The position numbers and the translations under genes were made by a program. DNA of 36,318 nucleotides from IMG/VR virus record IMGVR_UViG_3300035698_002075, positions 1 through 36,318 of that record; one strand, 5' to 3'. The notes beneath the pieces were generated by a model. It was not told where the DNA came from. It did not search any database and worked only from the letters and a program-made list of their open reading frames with translations. Below, one piece after another: positions 19,727-36,318 of the stretch (positions are counted from its first letter, which is position 1; every line of letters begins with the position of its first letter). The stretch is from a virus.

Positions 19727-20593
19727 TTATAATACAGGTACCACTACCGGACATGTAGCAGGCTCCGTAGCAGGTTCTGGGGTAAGTTCTGTATACACTA
19801 CTGCGCTAGGTTGCCCAAGGACATTGTCATTCTTGGGTTCGTGCTCAGCAGCTTGATTAGCAACCCCTGCAGACAGTGCACTAACTGCGGCTGAAACAGC
19901 AGCAGGTGTAATACCCCAGTCTGCTATAGTACCTCCAAAATCATCTAAACCTGCATTACTTTGTAATACAGCAAAAGCATCTAACATGGCTCTAGCATTT
20001 TGTTGTTCCGATAAACGAAGATAGCCATTAGATTGGTTACGATACATGCCTCTTTGTTGCCCTGTAATACCTTGTACAGTGACACCATCTACTGTATCCC
20101 ATATTTGAGCTTCTTCTGTTTTAGTTTTTTGAACGTACAGTTTAATTTCAGCATCTATTTTAGCAATTTGTTTAGTAAGTAAATTACCTTGTGTTTTAGA
20201 GTTGGCAGTATCTTGTAAAATACTGGCATTACCTGCTTCCAGTTTTTTAATTTCGTTCTTTAGTAAACACTCACGGTACTTAGCATTAAATACCTCAAAG
20301 TCTTTTAAGGTTTTGTCTGATTCTAGTATCTCGCCTTCTTTTATTAAGTTGGCTTTTTGTATCTCTAGAATAGAATTTTCAAGACTAGTAGTTTCTTTTT
20401 CTAAGAGAAACCTCACGGACTCTGCCATAGTACTCTGCAAGGCGCCTAAATAAACACTGGCATAATTTACTGAAGTAATACGTTCTGCTGAGTATTCTGC
20501 TTCTAAGTGAGCCTTTACAGAACGCATTAGTTCATCAAATACGCCTGTACCTGTAGTTTCGTTTGTAGTTAGGTCATCAATAGTTATAGTCAT
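19727..20593 (-). CDS. Virion protein, longer paralogue of the neighbouring 132-residue protein
   Basis: A 288-residue protein. Its first ~75 residues share a clear pattern with the gene just upstream: TTNETTGTGVFDELMRSVKA followed by an EYS..RI....YA.VYLG block, then a long coiled-coil segment (about residues 60-150). The middle (WDTVDGVTVQGITGQQRGMYRNQSNGYLR) is Gly/Gln-rich, and the rest is helical with a Pro/Thr/Val tail ending CPVVVPVL. It is in the virion transcription unit between the capsid and ejection genes, with a 1-nt TAATG overlap to the 132-residue gene and 3 nt to the membrane-belt gene. The likely role is a structural or tail-tube component; the function is not known to me. 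Confidence 0.62.
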   Translation of the reverse strand: MTITIDDLTTNETTGTGVFDELMRSVKAHLEAEYSAERITSVNYASVYLGALQSTMAESVRFLLEKETTSLENSILEIQKANLIKEGEILESDKTLKDFEVFNAKYRECLLKNEIKKLEAGNASILQDTANSKTQGNLLTKQIAKIDAEIKLYVQKTKTEEAQIWDTVDGVTVQGITGQQRGMYRNQSNGYLRLSEQQNARAMLDAFAVLQSNAGLDDFGGTIADWGITPAAVSAAVSALSAGVANQAAEHEPKNDNVLGQPSAVVYTELTPEPATEPATCPVVVPVL

Positions 20594-20991
20594 TATCCGT
20601 GAAATCCGTTGTGGTTTTTAAGATTGTCAGTTTCTTCTATTAATTTAAGAAGAGTTTGGTTACCTATTTCGATGTCTATCAAAGCTTTTGTTTTATTAAG
20701 CTCTAACACTTGATTTTGTATTTGAAGGTTTTGTAACTCAAGATTGGTTTTTTCTTGGTTTAGGGCATACATCATGGATTTATCTATAATGTTGTTCATT
20801 GTCCCTAAATAGACTTGTGCGAAGTCATTACCTGTAATCCTTCCTTTGGTATATTCTTCTGCTAAATGCACCTTACAGGCTCTCATTAGAGAGTCGAATG
20901 TACCAGTACCGTTCAAAGTACCTGTAGTCATATCACTTATATTTATTTCTAAAGGTACGGGTGTAATTGGAAGTACTGGTACGGTAGCCAT
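20593..20991 (-). CDS. Virion protein, shorter paralogue of the neighbouring 288-residue protein
   Basis: A 132-residue protein. Residues about 15-85 match the neighbour's N-terminus (MTTGTLNGTGTFDSLMRACK, then EEY..GRI....FAQVYLG). After that comes a coiled coil with Gln/Asn/Leu heptads (LELQNLQIQNQVLELNKTKA) and a short polar end. It lacks the neighbour's C-terminal ~150 residues. The two genes overlap by 1 nt (TAATG), and the stop of the upstream HeH/LEM-like gene directly abuts this ATG. The arrangement looks like tandem duplication with loss or gain of the C-terminal part. N4 has, as I recall, five genes between vRNAP and capsid and this phage has six, so this copy may be the extra one. 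It is presumed to be a virion component. Confidence 0.6.
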   Translation of the reverse strand: MATVPVLPITPVPLEINISDMTTGTLNGTGTFDSLMRACKVHLAEEYTKGRITGNDFAQVYLGTMNNIIDKSMMYALNQEKTNLELQNLQIQNQVLELNKTKALIDIEIGNQTLLKLIEETDNLKNHNGFHG

Positions 20992-24559: not shown

Positions 24560-26728
24560 TTATTTAGAGCCATTTCCTTTTAGATTTGCATCTAAAATTT
24601 TATCTTCTACTGAAGCCTGCCTGTTAAGACCATGCTCCATTAACTTAGTTTCTGCTTGTGCCTTAGATTGTTCTGCTGCGTTATCCAAGTTTCTATTATG
24701 AGTTACACCTGCTTCTTGTTCCAGATAGTCTAAATTGTTCTTGTCTGCTTTACTACTTAGTTCTTTAGTTTTAGCACCTTCGGTAATCGCTTTAGCATCA
24801 TCAAGAACCGCTTCTGCTCTGTTCTCTTCTACGATTGAGTATTCCTTAGCAATCTGAGCTTTAAGTAATTCTATTTCTAGTAATTTACGTTCTTGCTCTA
24901 ATGGGTCAGGCTGAGGTGTGTAATCTTTAATCTTTTTAGCTAACACAGGCATCTTACGTAATGTAGCTATCTCTACTAAAATTATCTTACGCATTTCAGG
25001 GTCTTCGTTAGGTCCCATAGTTTGTAGCATAAATGCCAATTCTTGTGCCCTAGCTTCATCTTCTTCTGCAGTACTAATTGTTAAACGTAAATCAAAATTC
25101 CCGGTTAAGTCGTCAGGACGCACTACTACAAACTCTTCATTTGTAATACGTACTACTTCATCTTCAGTAAGGAATTTCTGATTCATAGCAACGGTCTTTC
25201 GACCTATTTTAATCATACCCTGTACAAAACGTCTGAGAATGCCTGTATCCCGTTTACTGGTAGCATCTAATGCAGTCTTAACCCCAGCAGCCGTTTCAGA
25301 GCCTACGGCCCCTTGTTGACTTTGAGCGAAGGGTCTAACACCTGTCATAGATTCAGCATCTGAAGTCATTAACTGATTCATCACCATAGCTGATTGGGGT
25401 AACTCAGGGTATTTATGTATATGGAAAGATTGGTCAGGATTCATATTAGGATTAAATTCATAATCATCCCCGGCTAGGAATTTACGCTTATTAGTAATAT
25501 CCATAGAGCCTTGTGCATAACCTTGTTGACCATTAGCACTACGGGCCATTATATCGATAGAGCCTCTTATTACTGCACCAATTATTTTCTGGTTATCTTT
25601 AATTAATTCACCATCAGGTTCACCAAAATTACTCTTACGCACTGGCAACATCTGAACCAATACAAAAGGGAGTTTCTTGTCAGGGAAAGGGTTCTCTTCT
25701 AAGCGAATCATTACATCGCCCACATAAGTAGCCACAATGGGTTTAACAATACCCGTACCGTCTATATCCCAATAGCCCCAATACTCATGCATAACTATCT
25801 TTTGACGTGGTTTATCTTTAAACACGAAAGAAGATTTATCAGTATTATCATAATCAGCTGCAGTAGTGGGAGCCGCACTTGCAGGTATAGAATCAATATT
25901 TTTATATATACCATCTTTCTTTAATTCAGAAGTCGAAGTATCACTACTATATATAATAAACTGAGCTTTATCGGTATCGCCTTCGCATGTAGGGTCTATA
26001 GTAAGATTACGAAAATTACATACAGTCCATGTAGGTTGATTTTTTATAGTGACTTTTACTTTTTTAGTACCATCCTCATAAGCCATTACAGGTAATTGTC
26101 TTTCCATAGTTAGCTGAAGAGAGTTTTGTATATGTTCAGGCATTTCTGTCTGAAATCTTTCTGGGTCCTGTTGAGCCATTTTAACTAAATTAGATAGTTG
26201 CTCTTGTTCCTTAGGGTCATCAGTAACTCTGTATACGTAATTAGGTACGTCTTGTTCTTCTTCTTCAAAGTCCCAACCTACCCGAACTACTACGGTACCT
26301 TCGTCTACGCCAGTGCGTACATATTCATCTACGAAAGCTACTTTATCCATCTTAGTATTTACTTGGTTATTAATTACTAAAGCATTTTGTACTGCAGAGC
26401 GTTTGTCTTCGTAGGTAACAGGGTCTACATCGAATAATTCAGTAGTACTCATGAATGGTTCAGATAATGCAGCATAACGCCATTCAGCTTGCTTACGAAT
26501 AAGTTTAGGCTGAACAGTAGACCTACCATCTACCTTAGGTATAGCCGCGGTTCCTGTAACTTTTATTAAGTCTAGCCAGCCATCTACACGCAATGTTTGT
26601 TGATTCTGGTCAGATTGTGCTGAAGTGTAGTCTGCTTGTAAGTCAGATACTTTAGGTGGATTCTTCCAATTAGTTAGTGCTACCACATCGGGCACATCTA
26701 AAATAGATACTTCATCTTCTTCAGTCAT
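24560..26728 (-). CDS. Portal protein (N4 gp59-like)
   Basis: Ring protein at the head vertex through which DNA is packaged and ejected. The 722-residue length is near the N4 portal (about 760 as recalled) and far above most siphophage portals. Features that fit are a helical N-terminal part, the segment EYWGYWDIDGTG-IVKPIVATYVG at about residues 318-340 (wing beta strands), FPDKKLPFVLVQMLPVRKS followed by GEPDGELIKDNQKIIGAVI (portal clip/stem region) and a long charged helix at the C-terminus (about 600-720) rich in Glu, Lys, Ala and Gln. It lies downstream of the small beta-rich protein with a TAATG overlap. Family assignment rests on size, pattern and gene order, and is firm in this context. 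Confidence 0.85.
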   Translation of the reverse strand: MTEEDEVSILDVPDVVALTNWKNPPKVSDLQADYTSAQSDQNQQTLRVDGWLDLIKVTGTAAIPKVDGRSTVQPKLIRKQAEWRYAALSEPFMSTTELFDVDPVTYEDKRSAVQNALVINNQVNTKMDKVAFVDEYVRTGVDEGTVVVRVGWDFEEEEQDVPNYVYRVTDDPKEQEQLSNLVKMAQQDPERFQTEMPEHIQNSLQLTMERQLPVMAYEDGTKKVKVTIKNQPTWTVCNFRNLTIDPTCEGDTDKAQFIIYSSDTSTSELKKDGIYKNIDSIPASAAPTTAADYDNTDKSSFVFKDKPRQKIVMHEYWGYWDIDGTGIVKPIVATYVGDVMIRLEENPFPDKKLPFVLVQMLPVRKSNFGEPDGELIKDNQKIIGAVIRGSIDIMARSANGQQGYAQGSMDITNKRKFLAGDDYEFNPNMNPDQSFHIHKYPELPQSAMVMNQLMTSDAESMTGVRPFAQSQQGAVGSETAAGVKTALDATSKRDTGILRRFVQGMIKIGRKTVAMNQKFLTEDEVVRITNEEFVVVRPDDLTGNFDLRLTISTAEEDEARAQELAFMLQTMGPNEDPEMRKIILVEIATLRKMPVLAKKIKDYTPQPDPLEQERKLLEIELLKAQIAKEYSIVEENRAEAVLDDAKAITEGAKTKELSSKADKNNLDYLEQEAGVTHNRNLDNAAEQSKAQAETKLMEHGLNRQASVEDKILDANLKGNGSK

Positions 26729-27051
26729 TAAAATACTCTCAAAATTGTTTTAATAGTGCGTTCTTCTGAATGAGAATCTAAGTTAATTACCCTATCAGAT
26801 TTTACATTACATGTTATATCGAAAAACCCTGTAGTTAAAGTACAAAGTTTTACTGAAGCAATTAACCCATTAGAATAGGAGTCATTAGATATAATACCTT
26901 CTGGTATATTCCACTCTACTTGAATGTTTAAATCCTTAGAGCCATCTAACCACCTAGATAAATCTAAATGATAAAATACATCAGACCCTAAAGTAGCGTC
27001 TGGAAAATGGTCTCCGTCTATCTCTTGGTAAGGAAACTCTTTATAACTCAT
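26728..27051 (-). CDS. Small beta-rich virion protein (possible fibre-tail adaptor)
   Basis: A 107-residue protein with alternating hydrophobic strands and no helix-forming stretches (DVFYHLDLSRWL, LNIQVEWNIPEGI, GLIASVKLCTLTTGFFDITC, IKTILRVF). This looks like a single Ig-like or jelly-roll sandwich, similar in type to small fibre-tail adaptor or decoration proteins found next to phage tail genes. It lies between the portal gene (1-nt overlap) and the J-like fibre gene (36-nt gap) and has a strong RBS, AGGAGT, before the ATG. The adaptor role is a guess from fold type and position. Confidence 0.5.
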   Translation of the reverse strand: MSYKEFPYQEIDGDHFPDATLGSDVFYHLDLSRWLDGSKDLNIQVEWNIPEGIISNDSYSNGLIASVKLCTLTTGFFDITCNVKSDRVINLDSHSEERTIKTILRVF

Positions 27052-27087
27052 GGCTTATGACTCCTGGTTTTCATCATTATATGTTAA

Positions 27088-28869
27088 TTATACTTCTTGG
27101 GACAGTATACTTAAATCTCTTGTAGCTTTTGTATTAGGTAATAAATTAACGTTATTTATAACAGCAGACAAAGTATAGTTTCTAATGGCAGTAGTCTCTT
27201 CATTATCGAAATAAGTAAAGGTGCCTAATACCTGCTGAGACGTAAAAGTCTGTGCATTATCCTCATTAGTACATTGATAAGTTCCTATATATGTTTCTTG
27301 TTTAACTACAGAATCCGTATCATCTTTCAATGTCATAGTTACTGTAGGGTTAGCTGGAGCAGGATTAGGACATGCTGTATTCTCTAAACCAGAATTATAT
27401 GAAGCGTTTACGCTACAATTAATTGCTATTTGTCCCCCATTAGAAGAATAATTACCTGTGGAAATAGAAGGGGTATTAGTAAAACTAGCATCTTGTCTGC
27501 TTACCACTAAAGTACCTGCTATTATAATTCCACTCAGATACTGGTTACCAACAGCATCTTTCCAAGATTTCCCATTAATCTTATTTAAGTTGGCTAGTAT
27601 AGCAGAGCCGTTTAATACATTATTAGCCGTAGGCCCATACCACTCAATTAAGTTATCAGGTCCAAAAGGGTCAGGCCTATTTACTGTCATATAAGTAGTA
27701 CCTATACTTTCTATAAGAGAGCCCGTGATAGTACCTCTTATTTTGGCGTTATTAAATTCAACATCCCCATTAGAGTATATTCCCCAACCCTCTACGCCCG
27801 GGGTAAACGTAGCAGACTTAATCTGAGTTTCTGACTGATTTTCGTATAAACCAAGTCCTGTACCCAGTACTACGTTATTCATGTAAACAACCCCACCTAC
27901 TATACTAAAAGGTTGTACGTCTGTTGTGGCATCCCGAAATCTAAACTGGTTAGCTACAATATATACTTTAGAGTCGTTGCCATTATTTACCATACCAATA
28001 GAAGAAGTCAGTTCTCCTACTGTAGCTTCTATCTGCCAAAGTGCGTTTATTTCGCTATTAGAATCCCTTACAATTTCTAACTGGTTAGTAATAGAGTCTT
28101 CTCCAATATAAAGAGCTATGTTTACTGCTACTTCTAAAGCGTCTGTATAGTCCTTAGAGGCAATAATTGACTCACTTTTAATCCTAGCATCCCCTTCTTC
28201 TACTTCTAGTAAGAGACCTGCTAAGCTTTCCCCATTCGATTCTTTGTAAGCTATAAGGGATAAATTGGCGCTATTTGCTGTAGTAGCTACTGCTGCAGTG
28301 GCTTGGGCTAATTCGTTACCTGCATCATCAGTGTATACTTTCATGAGACGCTGAGCTTCAGCATCTCCAGCGCCTATAGCATGAGTCATCGTTGCTGCAG
28401 AAGCTCCAATAGATTCATTCGTGTAAGTAGTCATTGACTGTATAGCAAACGTATCCCCATCTAAGAGTTCTTGGGTGATATTTTGTATCTCAGTATCAGT
28501 GTGATTTAACAAATCATTAAACCGTTCATTCCAAGAGTTTTCTAAATCTACTAAATCTTGAGGAGGTATAGGAGTTGTGTACTGTAGAAGTTCGCCTAAA
28601 GTAATAGGACTAGGGGTAGTATCACTTACTACTGCATCCCCTAATATACGCCATTCGTCTAAGTCCCAATCCCTATCTTGAAGTACTTCTATATAAAATA
28701 AACCATTAGATACATTAAAGTTATAAACACCCACAGAGTTTGTAGTGTACAAACCAAAAACAGGGGCTACCATATCCCCTTCCCCTTGTACCGAAGTTAC
28801 TCTGATAGGGGTATTAGGCATATAATTAAATAAAGGGTCCCTTAGCGTACCAACTACATTTACACTCAT
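27088..28869 (-). CDS. Tail fibre/appendage protein with lambda J-like (DUF1983-type) segment
   Basis: A 593-residue fibre-type protein likely to sit at the tail and help bind the host. Residues 1-62 resemble a carboxypeptidase-like beta sandwich seen at fibre N-termini (GVYNFNVSNGLFYIEVL). A helical zone follows (about 105-245, Ala/Thr/Glu-rich). Residues about 260-345 resemble the end of lambda J (IEATVGELTSSIGM, then VYIVANQFRFRD, PFSIVGGVVYMNNVVLG). Residues 394-413 (MTVNRPDPFGPDNLIEWYGP) recur in the neighbouring 487-residue fibre protein. The C-terminus, with several Cys and a beta pattern (ENTACPNP, TYIGTYQCTN), looks like a small Ig-like tip. It overlaps the PAS-protein gene by 4 nt at its start. 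Receptor unknown. Confidence 0.72.
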   Translation of the reverse strand: MSVNVVGTLRDPLFNYMPNTPIRVTSVQGEGDMVAPVFGLYTTNSVGVYNFNVSNGLFYIEVLQDRDWDLDEWRILGDAVVSDTTPSPITLGELLQYTTPIPPQDLVDLENSWNERFNDLLNHTDTEIQNITQELLDGDTFAIQSMTTYTNESIGASAATMTHAIGAGDAEAQRLMKVYTDDAGNELAQATAAVATTANSANLSLIAYKESNGESLAGLLLEVEEGDARIKSESIIASKDYTDALEVAVNIALYIGEDSITNQLEIVRDSNSEINALWQIEATVGELTSSIGMVNNGNDSKVYIVANQFRFRDATTDVQPFSIVGGVVYMNNVVLGTGLGLYENQSETQIKSATFTPGVEGWGIYSNGDVEFNNAKIRGTITGSLIESIGTTYMTVNRPDPFGPDNLIEWYGPTANNVLNGSAILANLNKINGKSWKDAVGNQYLSGIIIAGTLVVSRQDASFTNTPSISTGNYSSNGGQIAINCSVNASYNSGLENTACPNPAPANPTVTMTLKDDTDSVVKQETYIGTYQCTNEDNAQTFTSQQVLGTFTYFDNEETTAIRNYTLSAVINNVNLLPNTKATRDLSILSQEV

Positions 28870-29477
28870 AATTTACCTATCACCATACCTACAGTAAATT
28901 TACCACCACTTGGTAGAGTTATGGGCCATTTAACATACTCAACCGGAACACGTTCTCCTTTGACTATCATGTAAGTATCCGACCTATATGGCTTATAGTT
29001 AGAATAAACAGCAATGTCCCCTTCTTGGTATATTTGAGCTAAGTCTGGTGGATACAAATCGTAATCACTATAGCCTATCATCTCTCTTTTAGTCATGCCA
29101 TAATCAACAGTAAATTGTTCATTTATGGTTACTATTCGGAATATGCCATCCTTTCCTCTTACTTTAATCCATGCTGGAAAAGGCAAAGATTCTAATACTT
29201 CGGCTAGTAACTCTGCTTGGGTAGTTTTATCTTTTACCTGGCTTGTTAAATCCATAATAGAATTTGCTTGTAATATTAACTTAGCTAAATAAGCCTCTTC
29301 ACGTTCTCTAGCTACTTTTAACTGTTCTGTAAGTGTTACAATTATTAACTGTATTTGAGACAACTCTTTGGATGATTCTGCTTGAGTAGTTTCAGCCCTA
29401 AAAGCTAATGCACCGTTGAAAGCCGTTCCTATTACCCCAATAATCGCTACTGCAATAAGCGTCTTATTCCATTTCAT
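28866..29477 (-). CDS. Membrane-anchored PAS-domain protein (periplasmic topology predicted)
   Basis: A 203-residue protein. Residues 7-27 are a single hydrophobic helix after a basic N-terminus (MKWNK), so the rest should lie outside the cytoplasm. Residues 30-95 are a Gln/Glu-rich coiled coil. Residues 96-203 read as a PAS domain: SLPFPAWIKVRGKDG, then INEQFTVDYGMTKREMIGYS, DYDLYPPDLAQIY, a Gly-Asp pair, and the last strand pair ending GGKFTVGMVIG. The start at 29477 is chosen because AGAAGG sits 6 nt before this ATG; an upstream GTG at 29528 would add 17 polar residues, overlap the neighbour and lacks an RBS. Topology resembles an inner-membrane spanin, but the PAS-like head is not spanin-like. 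Function is unknown. Confidence 0.72.
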   Translation of the reverse strand: MKWNKTLIAVAIIGVIGTAFNGALAFRAETTQAESSKELSQIQLIIVTLTEQLKVAREREEAYLAKLILQANSIMDLTSQVKDKTTQAELLAEVLESLPFPAWIKVRGKDGIFRIVTINEQFTVDYGMTKREMIGYSDYDLYPPDLAQIYQEGDIAVYSNYKPYRSDTYMIVKGERVPVEYVKWPITLPSGGKFTVGMVIGKL

Positions 29478-29483
29478 AGGTTG

Positions 29484-29489
29484 CCTTCT
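29484..29489 (-). promoter_or_regulatory. Ribosome binding site that decides the PAS-protein start
   Basis: AGAAGG on the minus strand, 6 nt before the ATG at 29477. The longer reading frame that starts at GTG 29528 has no such site, so the shorter 203-residue protein with an N-terminal membrane helix is preferred. Confidence 0.65.
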
Positions 29490-29518
29490 GTTGTTTTCTT
29501 TCTCACTGTGAATCACGG

Positions 29519-30271
29519 TTAAACCCACCCGTTTCTGGTGGCTTTATAATTAGTAGTATTATTAGATACGGTTAAACCTCTGGTTTCAATTACCTTAAGA
29601 GCTGCTTCATACCTACCTAAGAAAGTATTAGAATCACTAATACCTTCTTTAGCAGGCATACCTGTAGTCATACGCATTCCTATATAATTAAGTAATGCAT
29701 TTAAGTACACATCAGGTAAATCTATTTCAGCAGTTTCTATATCAAAATCTGTTAAACGTATTGGAGGTAAAGAAGCTCTGTAGTTGACTAGAAGTATTTC
29801 TTCCGTGGGAAAAGGAACAATAAAAGAAGTAAGACCTACTGTTATAGATTGAGAATCTGCTGCATCATTTAAAATCTTATCCAGATAATCTACAGTGAGA
29901 TTACCTACTTCATCACGTACAAACTTACTAGCAGCTCTGTTACATGACTTACCTTGAATAGTCTCAATACGTAACACGTCCCCTAAGAAAGGCGTGTACA
30001 CGTCATCTAGTATATATAAGTTATTAGAATAACCAAATGACTGAGTAAAGCTAGGATGTAAATGATATTCCATTATGTCAGGACTACACTGAATAGATAT
30101 GGTTTTGTTTACCGCATCTAACCTTTTGTATAACTCAGTTACTGCCATATTAATATGGGGAATAATTTTATCATAATTGTGGCGAAGAACTCCACCATCG
30201 TCCATACCCCCAACAGATAAAGTTCTTAACTCTCCTTGTGCTAAATGCTCGAATATATCTTTAATTAACAT
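29519..30271 (-). CDS. Neck/adaptor protein candidate (podoviral tail-adaptor type)
   Basis: A 250-residue protein. It begins with a helix (MLIKDIFEHLAQGELRTL), has a helical stretch with a hydrophobic face (HINMAVTELYKRLDAV) and a beta-rich middle (residues about 60-170: TISIQC, YILDDVYTPFL, VLRIETIQG, SFIVPFP). It ends in LPDVYLNALLNYIGMRMTTG and a GRYEAALKVIETRG helix. The LP..Y..AL..Y...R pattern near the C-terminus is common in podoviral adaptor proteins that bind under the portal. It starts 11 nt after the terminase stop. N4 gp67 lies next to its terminase gene in a similar place, and this may be its counterpart. The call is by pattern and place; it is not certain. Confidence 0.52.
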   Translation of the reverse strand: MLIKDIFEHLAQGELRTLSVGGMDDGGVLRHNYDKIIPHINMAVTELYKRLDAVNKTISIQCSPDIMEYHLHPSFTQSFGYSNNLYILDDVYTPFLGDVLRIETIQGKSCNRAASKFVRDEVGNLTVDYLDKILNDAADSQSITVGLTSFIVPFPTEEILLVNYRASLPPIRLTDFDIETAEIDLPDVYLNALLNYIGMRMTTGMPAKEGISDSNTFLGRYEAALKVIETRGLTVSNNTTNYKATRNGWV

Positions 30272-30282
30272 GTGATTCCTTA

Positions 30283-31866
30283 TTAAACTATGTATGAATT
30301 TATAGAGGCTTCTTTAGCAACTGGGTCACTGAATTCCCATATATTATCTTTATTCTTATGCCCTAATAAAGGAGGGCTGGGTTTCCAAGGCTCCATGACA
30401 GATAACATAGATATGCCGTCTATACAGTCATCATTCTTAGACTGAAACTTTGCTTTAGTGACTAGGGATAATTCTTCAATTATCTCTGTCATCTCTGCAC
30501 TGTCTTTTCTTCCTTTAGGGAAAAACATCTTTCCTGCTTTAAACATAGGTACCATTATCTGGAATCTAGTCATTTTATCTTTATTAGGTCTTATACCTGC
30601 TTCTCCTGAGTTCTTATCAGAAGATAAAGAAAAGAAGTTACGTCTTGTTAGCATCTCTCTTTGTATCCAAGGTATGAAACCACCTTGTTGACCAGATATT
30701 TCGATACCTACCCCTAGAGGTTTATAACGCTGAACCATGATAAATAAATCATCCATGTTTTTTCCCATATCCTGTTTCTTAACTATACCATCAATCCAGT
30801 ACCAGTCTCCATTAGAGTTATAACCCCATACAAATATTACGCTGTAATCTGCGGCATCTAAAGCGGATGTGGCAAAATCAGTGGTAATATAGATGTTAAA
30901 AGCATCTAAATTATCTTCTACATTTACTTCGTCATACCACCTAATATCCTTATCTTCTACTAAACGGTCTTCGTCAGATGTAATCCTAAGCATTAATTCT
31001 TGGTTGAATGCCTGAAGTTCCCCACTATCTTTTAAAACCTCATACTCATTCTTTACAAAATCATAAGTAAATCTGTCTTCCCAAGCACCCCTGAAATCCT
31101 CTCTACTGCACGGAAACTTCTCACATATAGGATATACTTTAGTTTTCCATCCTTTGCTTCCTGCAGCTCCATACAAAGGGTCACGTTTATTAAACGGGGT
31201 ACCTGTCCATATCATCTTACGTTTTTTAGGATGCAAAGCTTGTCTTGCTGCTTTATAAACAATATTCTTTATGTCTTTTACAATGGTAGCGGATTCTGCA
31301 TTCTTATCTGACATTAAATCATCAAACCCACACCATGTAGGTCGCTGACCGTATTCCTTAAATCCCCTAACTCCCGTACTTGCCCCAAATCCCCTAACTA
31401 CGAATGCTTTACCTGAAACATTAAAAAATTCCCACCTAACGTCTGTAAAATTAGCGTTTGGTATGTACTTTTGTAAAAAATCGGATTTGTTATAACGAAA
31501 CTCTAAGTTCTTACGCATACTCTTGACACCATTATCGATAGTGTCCGAAACATACATAGCTACGTTTACTTCTCCAAATTCAAAGAAATCTCCATAAGTG
31601 GCTAAGTACAAATACATGTATTCATGCAAGGCAGTAGTTTTAGCTGAGCCCCTGAAACTAACATAAAGGTTTTCATTATTTTCAGCAGCATGGTCTATCA
31701 TATCTAAATGGATGACAGGGCTTTTATTCTCTTCGCCTTCTGTGCCATTTACTAATTTAATAAAGGCTAAAAAATGAAGAGCAGCCACACCGGGTATGTA
31801 AGATGTGTTTAGAAAAGAGTAATCCACTTCGTTGATTAAATCCTCTAACTCTCTTTTTTCTGCCAT
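30283..31866 (-). CDS. terL: Terminase large subunit (N4 gp68-like)
   Basis: DNA-packaging motor, 527 residues. ATPase part: Walker A-like SFRGSAKTT (K76) near residues 70-78, and Walker B WCGFDDL with D182/D183. An Arg- and Lys-rich segment with WTGTP (about 220-224) fits the coupling motif. Nuclease part (RNase H-like): D330 in IYITTDFATSALDAADYSV, E389 in PLGVGIEIS, and D483 in NDDCIDGISM. All key acidic residues are present and length is usual for the family. The ATG overlaps the upstream gene's stop by one base. No small terminase is recognised in the window. The call is firm. The packaging type (N4 has short terminal repeats) cannot be told. Confidence 0.93.
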   Translation of the reverse strand: MAEKRELEDLINEVDYSFLNTSYIPGVAALHFLAFIKLVNGTEGEENKSPVIHLDMIDHAAENNENLYVSFRGSAKTTALHEYMYLYLATYGDFFEFGEVNVAMYVSDTIDNGVKSMRKNLEFRYNKSDFLQKYIPNANFTDVRWEFFNVSGKAFVVRGFGASTGVRGFKEYGQRPTWCGFDDLMSDKNAESATIVKDIKNIVYKAARQALHPKKRKMIWTGTPFNKRDPLYGAAGSKGWKTKVYPICEKFPCSREDFRGAWEDRFTYDFVKNEYEVLKDSGELQAFNQELMLRITSDEDRLVEDKDIRWYDEVNVEDNLDAFNIYITTDFATSALDAADYSVIFVWGYNSNGDWYWIDGIVKKQDMGKNMDDLFIMVQRYKPLGVGIEISGQQGGFIPWIQREMLTRRNFFSLSSDKNSGEAGIRPNKDKMTRFQIMVPMFKAGKMFFPKGRKDSAEMTEIIEELSLVTKAKFQSKNDDCIDGISMLSVMEPWKPSPPLLGHKNKDNIWEFSDPVAKEASINSYIV

Positions 31867-32180
31867 TATTTATTTTCCTTTCGAGGTTTAACTATAATTT
31901 TAGGTATAGAATACACACCTGTAAGAAGTTCACCAGACGGGCTGTTACCTTCTATAAGAGATTCTTCGTGAACTTCCGCACAGATAGTCCTATTATCGTA
32001 TATATCCCCTTCTACGAGGTTTCTGGGCTTCTTAGTGCCAAAAAATATAGGAAGTAAAAACCTACCATCAAATACATTGAAGTCTTCTAATTGGCCCAAA
32101 CTAACTAGAACCAATGTAACTTTTTTACTTTTAGTTAATAAACCGTAAGTGGCTAAACCTAAACTAGACACGGGTAACAC
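31866..32180 (-). CDS. Small protein of unknown function upstream of terminase
   Basis: I do not recognise this 104-residue protein. It has a mixed beta pattern (KKVTLVLVSLGQLEDFNVFD, GRFLLPIFFGTKKPRNLVEG) and a basic end (IIVKPRKENK), with no membrane helix. The proposed GTG start at 32180 overlaps the previous gene by 17 nt; another GTG at 32171 would also work, and no strong RBS decides between them. It is joined to the terminase gene by TAATG. By place it may be a small virion or packaging protein. Confidence 0.5.
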   Translation of the reverse strand: MLPVSSLGLATYGLLTKSKKVTLVLVSLGQLEDFNVFDGRFLLPIFFGTKKPRNLVEGDIYDNRTICAEVHEESLIEGNSPSGELLTGVYSIPKIIVKPRKENK

Positions 32181-32577
32181 TACTCACTGTTTCACCATCT
32201 CCGCTTATTACTTGTATAATATCACCCGCTTGCCTGCGGGTAGTGCTAACAGTCATAGTAGCTTCAGAAGATAAGCCATGTATTAAATGTAACTCGTTTA
32301 CTTTAAGAGTGGTGGCTTCATTATCGATAGAGGATATTTCCTTCTCCCCATCCCACTCTAATGACCCCTGCCCTAGTAGTTTGCTACCATTAAAAAATCT
32401 GACAACATAACTACCTTCACTCGTAAGAGGCAAATGACCGAAATAAATACCCGTTTGGTTATTTTCAGACATTAAAATAGCATAGCCAACTTGTACAGCC
32501 AGTTCATTATATAAATAGGCATATACGGTAAGTCCGGTTTCCCTCTCAGGATTACCATAATACTGTAATTCATTCAT
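32164..32577 (-). CDS. Small beta-sandwich protein, tail/neck associated
   Basis: A 137-residue protein made of short strands (GLTVYAYLYNELAVQVGYAI, YFGHLPLTSEGSYVVRFFNG, LLGQGSLEWDGEKEI), with the pattern G-Y-VV-F-G then W-D-G that is typical of small Ig-like phage tail or neck domains. The end (LHLIHGLSSEATMTVSTTRR, then AGDIIQVISGDG and VTRV) is a pattern I associate with phage tail-associated proteins. It lies between the fibre gene (12-nt gap) and the 104-residue gene. No enzyme motif is seen. A structural role is likely, but the exact partner is unknown. Confidence 0.52.
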   Translation of the reverse strand: MNELQYYGNPERETGLTVYAYLYNELAVQVGYAILMSENNQTGIYFGHLPLTSEGSYVVRFFNGSKLLGQGSLEWDGEKEISSIDNEATTLKVNELHLIHGLSSEATMTVSTTRRQAGDIIQVISGDGETVSSVTRV

Positions 32578-32589
32578 TTAGCTTACCTC

Positions 32590-34053
32590 TTAAGATAGGT
32601 CTTCTATGCTTAATATAGACAAGTCGTGTATATCTATACTACTTAAACTATGAAAACGGTCTTCATTAGTCACCTGTGCTCTGTACCATACATTACCTGT
32701 TACTGAGTTATTATCAGTACTTATAACTTCTGATGCCATTTCTTCATCTATAATACAGAAATTACCTTCACTTTCATAAAAAGTACCTGTACTGCCTGAT
32801 AGTGGTGTAGTACTTCCTACAGGTGTCCATGTAGTTCCATTAGTAGACCTTTCTATTATCAAAGCCCCTGAGGGTTGTGTAGGACTCACAGGGCAACTTC
32901 CTGAAGGTTGGCTGTTCGCTTTATACAAGTAATTAACTTTCAATTGCCGAGGGTTACCATAGCTCTGAAAGGGTCCTAACACCAAAGTACGATTAAGGTT
33001 TTTATCCGTGCTCTTTTCCGCATTCTTAGCCAAGTTAATACTAGAAGTTATAGTATTACTATCCCCTGTAATGTCCCTCCATTCTGTAGCATTGGCTCTA
33101 GTTACTGAAGCAAATATAACATCCTCATTACTATCTACGAATTTAGGTCCAAAGTACCATACCAAGTTATTAGGGCCTACTCCATCAGGGTCATTAATTT
33201 CCATATAACTTGCACCTATAAGTATCAAGGTGCCTCCTATTAATTGGCCTCCTCTAACAATAGGTGAAGTAATTTCTGTACCTGCTTCAAGAGTATCCCC
33301 TCTTAATGTTCTTTTTACGATAACGGAGCCGGGGAATATATCTACCGCACTAGTCCAGAACGTACCGCCAAACTCAAAAGCTACTGAATCTGTACCATCT
33401 ATTCTTGTTTGAGTGAACAAATCCCCTTCTGCAGGTAATCTGCCAACTTTTTCCAAGAAACGAGTAGTTATAACAGAAGTGCTATAAGAGATAGTAGAGT
33501 AAGTGCCATTATAAAGACCTGCCCCAGGTGTGCCTGCTTGACCTGCAGGAGCGAAAGTAATGTTATTTAGGGAAGAGTATTCCCCATTTATACTACAATC
33601 AAACCTGTAAGCACCTGCTATAGGTTCTTCGCTAGTATATACAATTAACCCATCTATATAATATTTAACAAATAAACCATCATTTATTACAGACAGCACG
33701 GAGCCTTCTACGTAAGTACCTATTTGTGCCTTGTAACTACCACTTTCGAATACTTGTATATTTCCCGTGTTTGAGACAAATATAGCAAAATCAATTGAGT
33801 TAAACCCGGCACCTGTGCCATCATCATTAGATAACCCAAACATAATATTAGGGGTGGTATCGCTTACAGTACAAGAAGTAGAACATGTTATATAAGACTC
33901 TTTCGAATAAGCCCCTGAATCCCAACCATTTGTGCTAATTATCTTTTGTACAGTAGTGGGAGTAACTTTACAATTTGCCGTGTTTAGTAAAGTAAAAGAA
34001 CCCACCCCGTCATTAACATCAAATAAAGTTATAAACCCTGTTGATGTTCTCAT
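32590..34053 (-). CDS. Tail fibre-type protein sharing a module with the J-like fibre
   Basis: A 487-residue beta-rich protein. The start at 34053 is chosen over an upstream ATG at 34074 (494 residues) because it begins MRTSTGFITLFDVNDG, the same N-terminal pattern as the gene before it (MRTSVGVITLMDIKDG), and its ATG overlaps that gene's TAA (TAATG). Residues about 20-170 look like a concanavalin/laminin-type sandwich. A Gly-rich turn (GQAGTPGAG) follows. Residues 284-303 (MEINDPDGVGPNNLVWYFGP) and the stretch after it recur in the 593-residue fibre. The C-terminus holds paired Cys and Ser/Thr-rich strands, then a short helix-like end (LSILSIEDLS). Likely tail or appendage component; receptor unknown. 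Confidence 0.66.
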   Translation of the reverse strand: MRTSTGFITLFDVNDGVGSFTLLNTANCKVTPTTVQKIISTNGWDSGAYSKESYITCSTSCTVSDTTPNIMFGLSNDDGTGAGFNSIDFAIFVSNTGNIQVFESGSYKAQIGTYVEGSVLSVINDGLFVKYYIDGLIVYTSEEPIAGAYRFDCSINGEYSSLNNITFAPAGQAGTPGAGLYNGTYSTISYSTSVITTRFLEKVGRLPAEGDLFTQTRIDGTDSVAFEFGGTFWTSAVDIFPGSVIVKRTLRGDTLEAGTEITSPIVRGGQLIGGTLILIGASYMEINDPDGVGPNNLVWYFGPKFVDSNEDVIFASVTRANATEWRDITGDSNTITSSINLAKNAEKSTDKNLNRTLVLGPFQSYGNPRQLKVNYLYKANSQPSGSCPVSPTQPSGALIIERSTNGTTWTPVGSTTPLSGSTGTFYESEGNFCIIDEEMASEVISTDNNSVTGNVWYRAQVTNEDRFHSLSSIDIHDLSILSIEDLS

Positions 34054-35105
34054 TAGTCGGTTACCACCGTACAAGTAAACATGTTAGAACTATCATTATC
34101 TACATCACCCGGGCCAACTGTTAAAGTCCTAGAAGTGCCTGGATTGCCTACAGGAAAACCTACTCCATCCCTTAACCAAGTATACGTTATTAAATTGGGG
34201 TCTATTAAGTTGTTATTATTATTATCCCATACGTCTACTTCTAATGTTTTAGCACTACCTTGGTTATTTTTAAATACCTGACCACCGTCCACCGTAGTAA
34301 TAGAAACCGTTAAAGAGGCTGGTCCTGTCTTTCCATCTTGTATTTTAACAATACTGACTACGTCTACTCCTGCAGGGTCTCCAGTCACTTTAATAGCAAA
34401 CGTATTAGCAGTACCAAAATTAGCGGAAGATATTACAATACTGTCTGAAGGAATCCCATCAATATCTAAAAGCTTAGCTTTGTTAACTCCTGTGCCTTGG
34501 ACTAAAGGGGCAAACGCTTGACTATTACGACTGTAAAAAGCATTCATACCTCCCGTAACGCCCTCAGTTTCCACACTTATAGTAATATCCCCATCACTTG
34601 TTACATCATTTTCATCATAAGAAAAGGTTTGACGATTAGGAATCATACTGACTATTGAGCCACCTGCTCCCTGTATTACTTTGTTTATAGAAATAATGGG
34701 TTTTACTGTGGTGATATTGCCTAATTTATTTCTTACATCTATCTCAACTACTAGATTAGTTGAGCGTTGGCTTTCGCTGTCTCCATTAGGTACATTGGCT
34801 AATTTAATTACAGCTTGGTTGTTAACTACTGTAATGCTGGTAGACCAATTACCATTACTAGATGTAGAAGTTACCCCAATAACTTTATAAGTTTCTACAG
34901 GTTGGGTTGCTAATGATGTGTAAGGGATTCGGTCTACCCCTATATATACATAAATCTCACACTCAAAATCATCTATTACTGCATTAGTGACCCCACCATA
35001 AGAGTCTGCTGTTAAAGAATGGGATTGGTTTCCAAGGACAAGAGAGATAGGGTCAAACCCATCCTTTATATCCATTAATGTTATTACGCCTACACTTGTT
35101 CTCAT
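34053..35105 (-). CDS. Ig-like tail protein
   Basis: A 350-residue protein. It begins MRTSVGVITLMDIKDGFDPI, with an opening like the DG-rich strand of phage tail fibres. It then has several beta-sandwich domains: about residues 20-140 (ending VKPIISINKV), 140-255 and a last Ig-like domain at about 265-350 (GGQVFKNNQGSAKTLEVDVW, ITYTWLRDG, then NMFTCTVVTD). That last domain matches the one in the 143-residue ORF upstream (GNVFRNNIG..K.L). The stop overlaps the ATG of the next fibre gene. RBS AAAGG lies before the ATG. No enzyme motif is seen. It is probably a segment of a multi-part tail or appendage; N4 uses unrelated gp65/gp66 there. Confidence 0.66.
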   Translation of the reverse strand: MRTSVGVITLMDIKDGFDPISLVLGNQSHSLTADSYGGVTNAVIDDFECEIYVYIGVDRIPYTSLATQPVETYKVIGVTSTSSNGNWSTSITVVNNQAVIKLANVPNGDSESQRSTNLVVEIDVRNKLGNITTVKPIISINKVIQGAGGSIVSMIPNRQTFSYDENDVTSDGDITISVETEGVTGGMNAFYSRNSQAFAPLVQGTGVNKAKLLDIDGIPSDSIVISSANFGTANTFAIKVTGDPAGVDVVSIVKIQDGKTGPASLTVSITTVDGGQVFKNNQGSAKTLEVDVWDNNNNNLIDPNLITYTWLRDGVGFPVGNPGTSRTLTVGPGDVDNDSSNMFTCTVVTD

Positions 35106-35117
35106 TTCAATTACCTT

Positions 35118-35549
35118 TTAAATTTGGGTGACTCTACAAAGTATTTGTAAATTTCCACCATCTACTATATCAGAGGGGTCTACTACTATGATTTGGGTAT
35201 TAGTACCAAAATCTACGTCAGGGTCAGCAGGGGATAACCCAACTGCAGGAAAAAGACTTACTAAATTATTCTGACCATCTAAATATAAAACAGAATCTTC
35301 AGAATACCATCTGTATTTTAAACTGAGGGTATCTGTTATTAGTTCGCCATTTAAATAACTGACAGCTTTAAGTACCTTATCTATGCCTATATTATTTCTG
35401 AATACGTTACCCTGACTTACATGTATCTCAGTAGTTAAGGCGTACCCATCAGCACCAGGAACAGTACTATCTTCACCTGCTTCCCCTTGTGGCCCTTGGG
35501 GGCCTTCGTCCCCCTGTGGGCCTTCTACGGAGCTTGCATATACTTTCAT
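35118..35549 (-). CDS. Short collagen-like/Ig-like tail protein
   Basis: A 143-residue protein. Residues 8-23 hold Gly-X-Y collagen-like repeats (GPQGDEGPQGPQGEAG), followed by DSTVPGADGYALTTEI. The rest is one Ig-like domain (GNVFRNNIGIDKVLKAVSYL, LKYRWYSEDSVLYLDG, then QILCRVTQI) homologous by eye to the last domain of the 350-residue protein downstream. The collagen repeat is a common trimer-forming phage tail spacer. It is flanked by 10- and 12-nt gaps. It likely forms part of the tail or appendage together with the neighbours. Confidence 0.6.
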   Translation of the reverse strand: MKVYASSVEGPQGDEGPQGPQGEAGEDSTVPGADGYALTTEIHVSQGNVFRNNIGIDKVLKAVSYLNGELITDTLSLKYRWYSEDSVLYLDGQNNLVSLFPAVGLSPADPDVDFGTNTQIIVVDPSDIVDGGNLQILCRVTQI

Positions 35550-35559
35550 TAATTACTCC

Positions 35560-36318
35560 TTAAACAGGTACGCGCACAATCCTAAGCTTTCTTTGAAATA
35601 TAGGAGCAAGTTTATTGTCTTCTAAATCGTATATAACAAACTGGTGAGTGTAATCACCGTAAAACGTCATAAGGTTTCTAGAAATATCCACTATAAATTG
35701 GTCACCTGATACAGTAATACCACTGCCTAGGGTTAACCCTATCAGTACGCGATTACCTCTATCATAAATAGAATATTCCGCTTTACTCGCTAAATTAGGA
35801 GAAAAAGGAACACCTACAAATTCAGCTTCTACAGGAAATATATTATCACTATTCTGCCATAAGGTGTCTACACTATATTTAACTACTGTAGTAGTTATAG
35901 GGGTTACTACAACATCTGCACTTTCTACGATTACAACTCTAGTAACTTCATCTGCTTCATTGTTGGCTAAATCTACTGAATTATACCTAAGAACATAAGT
36001 ACCTATTTCATTAATTAAACCTCCATCATCCACTTCTACAGAAGAACCATCATCCGTACCATAAGTAAATACAGGTAAATCATCCCCTTTTTTAATGGTT
36101 GTTACCGGGTCACCACTTACAGTTATTACTGGTTTAGTGGTATCTACATCCCCAGACGCATTTACGTTAATAAGCGCAGTAGCTATATTACTTTCTAAGT
36201 TATTTGAATCAAACACCTGACAAGTAACATTAATCTGACTTGCACTAGAAGAGGTAGGTGCTGTGAGGGTAATAGATGGGGTAACAGCGCCATTAAACCA
36301 CAAATAAGTATGCGTATC
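35560..36318 (-). CDS. Ig-like tail protein, N-terminus beyond window edge
   Basis: The frame is open to the right edge: codons before the TTG at 36303 read DTHTYLWFNG, an Ig-like strand, so the gene begins outside the window and that TTG is not the start. The visible ~252 residues hold the end of one Ig-like domain (INVTCQVFDSNN), then a DUF5011-like domain at about residues 55-135 (DTTKPVITVSGDP, a Gly-Asp turn and TYVLRYNSVDLANNEAD). A beta-rich C-terminal domain follows (VKYSVDTLWQNSDNIFPVEA to RIVRVPV). Similar domains are common in surface-binding proteins. It lies 10 nt before the collagen-like ORF. It is probably a tail or appendage part; full length is unknown. Confidence 0.65.
   Translation of the reverse strand, partial: DTHTYLWFNGAVTPSITLTAPTSSSASQINVTCQVFDSNNLESNIATALINVNASGDVDTTKPVITVSGDPVTTIKKGDDLPVFTYGTDDGSSVEVDDGGLINEIGTYVLRYNSVDLANNEADEVTRVVIVESADVVVTPITTTVVKYSVDTLWQNSDNIFPVEAEFVGVPFSPNLASKAEYSIYDRGNRVLIGLTLGSGITVSGDQFIVDISRNLMTFYGDYTHQFVIYDLEDNKLAPIFQRKLRIVRVPV

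Follow-up and report, generated by a model that had tools for sequence, protein, structure and literature searches.

What a small membrane protein with a PAS-like domain might do among the tail and packaging genes of a phage is the question raised by one gene in the 36,318-nucleotide stretch of viral DNA analyzed here (the window). The window belongs to an N4-like phage, as judged from its virion RNA polymerase (3664 aa, E=6e-138), SU10-type portal and adaptor, terminase, and major head protein.

Position of the gene and its neighbors

The gene originally predicted at positions 28866 to 29477 proved to be real but lies on the minus strand, where an uninterrupted ORF of 203 aa starts at ATG 29477 (Table 1); the plus-strand reading of the same interval is riddled with stops. 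This ATG was preferred over upstream GTG codons because the sequence AGAAGG is found 6 bases upstream of it. The predicted placement among tail and packaging genes also held, with the gene sitting between those encoding the adaptor and the tail-tip protein. It is translationally coupled to the tail-tip gene via an ATGA overlap.

Table 1. Features of the PAS gene and its immediate neighbors in the window
Feature	Coordinates	Strand	Basis
CDS, 203 aa: TM/signal segment, long helix, and PAS domain	28866..29477	-	ORF, profile match, model and fold search
Shine-Dalgarno-like AGAAGG, 6 bases before the ATG	29484..29489	-	Read from sequence
ATGA stop/start overlap (4 bases) with the downstream tail-tip gene	28866..28869	-	Sequence
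Hydrophobic stretch without charges (residues 6-26), either a membrane anchor or a signal peptide open to cleavage (A23-L24-A25 motif)	29400..29462	-	Hydropathy; motif read from sequence
Long helix/predicted coiled coil, residues 30-95	29193..29390	-	Model, in which two helices (32-78, 84-96) have low to middling confidence
PAS domain, residues 96-203; conserved P-x-P-x-W-x-K at 99-105, K183	28869..29192	-	Profiles, alignment of phage homologues, model and fold search
Upstream neighbor, SU10-type adaptor (neck) protein	29519..30271	-	PF24175 E=2.8e-8, phrog_2125
Downstream neighbor, tail-tip/fiber protein	27088..28869	-	Profile matches

The flanking tail and neck genes and the coupling to the tip gene would suit a virion or ejection protein, that is, a minor tail-associated membrane protein for DNA entry. 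Against this, the PAS genes of Cellulophaga phages phi14:2, phi18:3, and phi19:1 (described below) are without the virion MS/MS annotation that many of their neighbors carry, and we consider a virion role improbable. We know of no virion protein with a PAS fold.

The N4 lysis cassette is located among the late genes, beside the portal. It consists of gp60 to gp63 (PMC12642591). No holin, endolysin, or spanin was recognized among the annotated proteins of the 36-kb window, which lacks roughly half of the usual N4-like genome.

Two other regions of the window drew attention. The adjacent minus-strand ORFs at 19727-20593 and 20593-20991 are similar to each other and both match the N-terminal part of phrog_2050, a family of virion proteins, which points to a tandem duplication or a split gene. 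Upstream of the terminase lies a minus-strand run of tail-like genes (32164-36303), in which one gene encodes collagen-like GPQG repeats (35118-35549) and another has an Ig-like match that is weak (35560-36303); fiber genes ahead of the terminase seem unusual among N4-like phages.

Fold and topology of the encoded protein

The PAS-like domain of the original prediction was borne out by profile search and structure prediction alike. Pfam PAS_4 matched residues 98 to 192 (E=4e-4; 20.9 bits, slightly below the curated cutoff of 23.1), and the sensory_box profile TIGR00229 matched the protein with E=0.004. The PAS_4 cutoff was passed by phage homologues of the same architecture, namely those of Chryseobacterium phage MA9V (32.3 bits) and L084 (25.3 bits). 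A profile built from five PAS domains of phages retrieved only PAS-containing proteins from the PDB sequences, the best being VqmA (7DWM, E=0.0013). An AlphaFold model from the single sequence was discarded as too poor (pLDDT 43). The model used was built from three sequences and had a mean pLDDT of 55 (61 to 78 by blocks over residues 131 to 200); with moderate confidence, and with strand B unresolved, its elements follow the PAS order of a strand, helices at 130 to 160, and three strands at 164 to 202. When it was compared with the PDB by Foldseek, 89 matches were obtained at E<=1e-3, and among the matches listed nearly all were PAS, LOV, or Cache proteins, with E about 1e-4. The Pfam matches included no Cache family, and dCACHE structures were present among the fold matches. 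Because of the PAS_4 profile matches, the group of phage homologues, and a model with PAS proteins as its best fold matches, the assignment of residues 96 to 203 to the PAS fold goes well beyond chance, and we regard it as nearly certain. Close relatives of the protein were absent from the viral and genome collections searched, one alignment (A4) was too divergent for use as a search query, and defense-system profiles gave no match.

The protein contains neither Cys nor His. On the predicted sequence this would exclude LOV adducts and c-heme, and b-heme bound via His is unlikely. Because both residues are missing, sensing through heme, Fe-S, or covalent flavin is likewise unlikely, so that, of the small-molecule and redox sensing that the original prediction named as usual for PAS domains, the redox part is improbable for these cofactors; the binding of a small molecule is kept in the model below.

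The single N-terminal membrane segment that had been predicted was recovered at residues 6 to 26, which carry no charges, have a mean hydropathy of 2.0, and follow a basic MKWNK. The predicted coiled coil was upheld in the form of a long helix, shown in the model to be long enough for a coiled coil, with low to middling confidence. The side of the membrane on which the PAS domain lies is less clear-cut. Export is favored because of the positive-inside rule and the signal-peptidase-like A23-L24-A25 motif, as the original prediction of a periplasmic domain would have it, whereas this rule would place the PAS domains of phi14:2, L084, and MA9V in the cytoplasm, opposite to the window protein. Those of phi18:3 and phi19:1, judged by eye, look exported. 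Classical PAS domains are mostly intracellular and Cache domains are outside (PMC8694187). We think it somewhat probable that the PAS domain of the window protein is on the periplasmic side, with the protein either anchored or cleaved.

The original prediction had likened this topology to that of a spanin, and an N-terminal TM segment followed by a helix and a periplasmic head does resemble an i-spanin; moreover, N4-like phages place spanins in this region, as seen in L020, L022, and L028, where a lipobox ORF is embedded within a TM gene. As an i-spanin or unimolecular spanin, the protein would span the periplasm and help membrane fusion, the PAS domain being a mere periplasmic head. This comparison broke down on inspection. 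No o-spanin partner was found, there being no same-strand lipobox ORF of at least 25 aa at 26700-30300, either near or inside the PAS gene. The lack of Cys anywhere in the protein means that it has no lipobox, and its TM segment is N-terminal rather than C-terminal, both of which argue against a unimolecular spanin. A PAS head is not, to our knowledge, a spanin feature, and a spanin function is very unlikely.

Signaling modules in relatives and beside lysis genes

A search of other N4-like genomes for the same gene, which the original prediction had suggested, yielded none: PAS was found in 0 of the 41 other viral contigs searched, 40 of which are N4-like. Because it is absent from all 41, the PAS gene is accessory, and its slot holds an accessory signaling module in few members. 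Receivers were found among the same contigs only in L008, L071, and one non-N4 contig. The portal of L008 is 75% identical to that of the window, and the first 120 residues of the window tail-tip protein are 58% identical to the product of the gene following the L008 receiver gene. Before this tip homologue, L008 has a 3TM-holin-like gene, an 88-aa TM-coil gene, and an overlapping CheY-like receiver (PF00072 E=2e-16). In L071, which has an N4-type adaptor, a 98-aa TM-coil gene comes after the adaptor gene and overlaps a receiver (2.5e-17) sharing 48% identity with the L008 receiver; beyond it, the other strand encodes a GTA_holin_3TM protein (3.8e-11) and, in an ORF without a Pfam match, what reads like a phage lysozyme/transglycosylase endolysin. 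From sequence reading, L020, L022, and L028 have endolysin or spanin genes between the adaptor and portal. The adaptor protein and the tip N terminus, used as search baits, brought in no new relatives beyond L008.

PHROG 2524 contains both the 3TM-holin-like gene of L008 and a 3TM holin-like protein from Alteromonas phage H4/4. This family (L008:685-1101, L064:6474-6845) is listed as of unknown function. It has a TWKDEY motif and adjoins lysis genes, its L071 counterpart matches GTA_holin_3TM, and by sequence it looks like a 3TM holin family.

PAS homologues were also gathered from unrelated phages, by sequence or fold and independently of position. In the crAss-like Cellulophaga phage phi14:2, the TM-coil-PAS gene g078 overlaps the endolysin gene g077; in MA9V, a GH108 endolysin precedes PAS gene 249 by two genes; in phi18:3, gp090 (172 aa) itself precedes a GH108 endolysin, again by two genes; and in phi19:1, gp108 (240 aa) precedes a lysozyme by five. 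The last two were named by the fold search as proteins and assigned to genes via length and sequence reading, by which they have a membrane segment, a helix, and a PAS-like motif, with no Pfam match. The exception is a soluble PAS relative in Brevundimonas jumbo phages, which some 39 kb separate from the lysozyme. A test of adjacency to lysis genes over the five PAS lineages, with Brevundimonas counted, gave a combined P=2e-4 under a uniform null, a rough figure from few genomes, and P=0.007, equally rough and again from few genomes, when only 40% of genes were allowed as positions.

Receivers have comparable surroundings in Alteromonas phages. The order is holin, TM-coil, receiver, and second membrane protein in H4/4 and R8W (a 3TM gene in H4/4) and TM-coil, receiver, and GH108 lysozyme in R9Y2. 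The TM-coil and receiver genes overlap by 4 to 8 bases in every receiver locus (Alteromonas, L008, and L071), and the phospho-acceptor Asp, the Ser/Thr, and the Lys are intact in the receivers. Adding two Alteromonas receivers to the adjacency test gave 4e-5 (uniform) and 0.004 (40% of positions), with few genomes in either case. The "Receiver domain" of N4 gp63 (PMC12642591) was not counted, this being the label given to a mutated patch close to the TM segment and not a CheY-like domain.

Several annotations in these phages deserve comment. The Alteromonas genes at L064:6016-6477 and L067:4016-4477, annotated as a DNA-binding response regulator (PhoB), encode receiver-only proteins of about 153 aa beside a holin; PF00072 is the sole Pfam match above the cutoff in the L064 protein, and the DNA-binding annotation looks wrong from the sequences. 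In the Brevundimonas jumbo phages (L002:5359-5799), the PAS gene overlaps one whose product is a coiled-coil protein ending in a membrane segment at the C terminus, an architecture like that of N4 gp63 or XhlA. The MA9V endolysin may be split over two genes because the gene after it (L003:4083-4751) has a lipoprotein-like N terminus and a PG_binding_3 C terminus.

A different reading is that the protein mimics or titrates host signaling, in line with the dead-end dimers with a host sensor suggested in the original prediction: the PAS domain would dimerize with, or the protein divert, a host PAS-containing kinase or cyclase, altering late host physiology. PAS domains commonly dimerize, the receivers that occupy this slot retain catalytic residues with which they could take phosphate from kinases of the host, and an Alteromonas receiver has been read as PhoB-like and linked to low-phosphate adaptation (PMC8228385). 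However, the modules recur among lysis genes and not among early host-takeover genes, a PAS domain in the periplasm, if that is where it lies, could not meet cytoplasmic PAS proteins, and receivers of about 150 aa without a DNA-binding domain are not full-length PhoB homologues. Host mimicry is unlikely.

A possible role in lysis timing

The reading we prefer, to which we give about an even chance, is that the window gene encodes a late, membrane-tethered PAS protein giving regulatory input to the lysis machinery. The helix would form dimers or higher oligomers, the PAS domain would bind a small ligand or partner protein, and the bound state would alter a holin or endolysin step, so that lysis is advanced or delayed. 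A PAS domain in the periplasm would have the periplasmic T4 antiholin RI as its nearest working model; one in the cytoplasm might act on the cytoplasmic part of the holin, as proposed for N4 gp62/gp63. The window protein itself has only one TM segment and no holin-family match. The original suggestion that it times lysis thus stands in part: the slot in relatives and the recurrence near lysis genes in unrelated phages speak for it indirectly, and the lack of a recognized lysis gene in the window speaks against it.

A special case of this lysis-regulating role is a periplasmic superinfection sensor that would register the arrival of further phage and keep the holin closed, triggering lysis inhibition. 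N4 shows lysis inhibition with the sensor unknown (PMC12642591), and the N terminus of the window protein looks like a cleavable signal peptide, a feature that the periplasmic antiholin T4 RI has (PMC8385771); its charge and A-x-A motif agree with predicted export. On the other hand, no sequence relation to RI was seen, N4 itself is without a reported PAS protein, and relatives with a C-in topology could not work in this way, which makes the sensor a rather unlikely variant.

Taken together, the loci suggest a broader pattern of PAS and receiver modules beside lysis genes, which is the most interesting result of this study; a search joining PAS or response regulators with phage lysis found, within the literature library searched, no paper describing or stating the association. 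It is possible, although we hold this tentatively, that unrelated phages repeatedly put signaling input domains into lysis cassettes, either a PAS domain fused to a membrane-anchored coil or a receiver paired with one, as one-component or phospho-gated sensors that make the time of lysis depend on the state of the host or envelope, the window gene being the N4-like PAS version. In only a few phages, T4 among them, is it known in detail how the environment controls lysis, and the superinfection or cell-state sensor of N4-like phages is an open question (PMC12642591). If the module does recur beside lysis genes, cultured phages offer candidates for deletion (phi14:2 g078, H4/4 gp44, and MA9V-2 gene 249), and a new reading would follow for the Alteromonas phage gene currently interpreted as PhoB-like and metabolic (PMC8228385).

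Among known systems, T4 RI and N4 gp62-gp63 are likewise small phage proteins of the membrane or periplasm; they adjust when the holin acts, and the N4 proteins belong to an N4-like lysis locus. They differ from the window protein in having no PAS domain and no sequence similarity that we could see, and its own lysis function is one that we infer. The PAS proteins of phi14:2 (g078), L084, MA9V, phi18:3, and phi19:1 share its arrangement of TM segment, helix, and PAS domain in about 170 to 240 aa and are encoded next to or near endolysin genes, but they are only about 14 to 24% identical to it, and the charge pattern of the first three predicts the opposite orientation. VqmA of phage VP882, the best PDB profile match, was ranked 9 in the fold search, and K183 of the window protein aligns with the VqmA Lys next to KxP. 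A Lys equivalent to K183 is common in PAS_4, so that sharing it implies no ligand, and a VqmA-like DPO ligand would be a lead only. VqmA is a phage PAS protein that links a small signal to lysis through transcription (PMC8284805); unlike the window protein, which is predicted to be membrane tethered and is without a DNA-binding part, it is a soluble DPO-binding transcription factor (PMC8284805). In the TM-coil and CheY-like receiver pairs of the Alteromonas phages, L008, and L071, the receiver replaces PAS and is encoded by a separate, overlapping gene, whereas the slot or lysis surroundings and the combination of a membrane coil with a signaling domain are the same.
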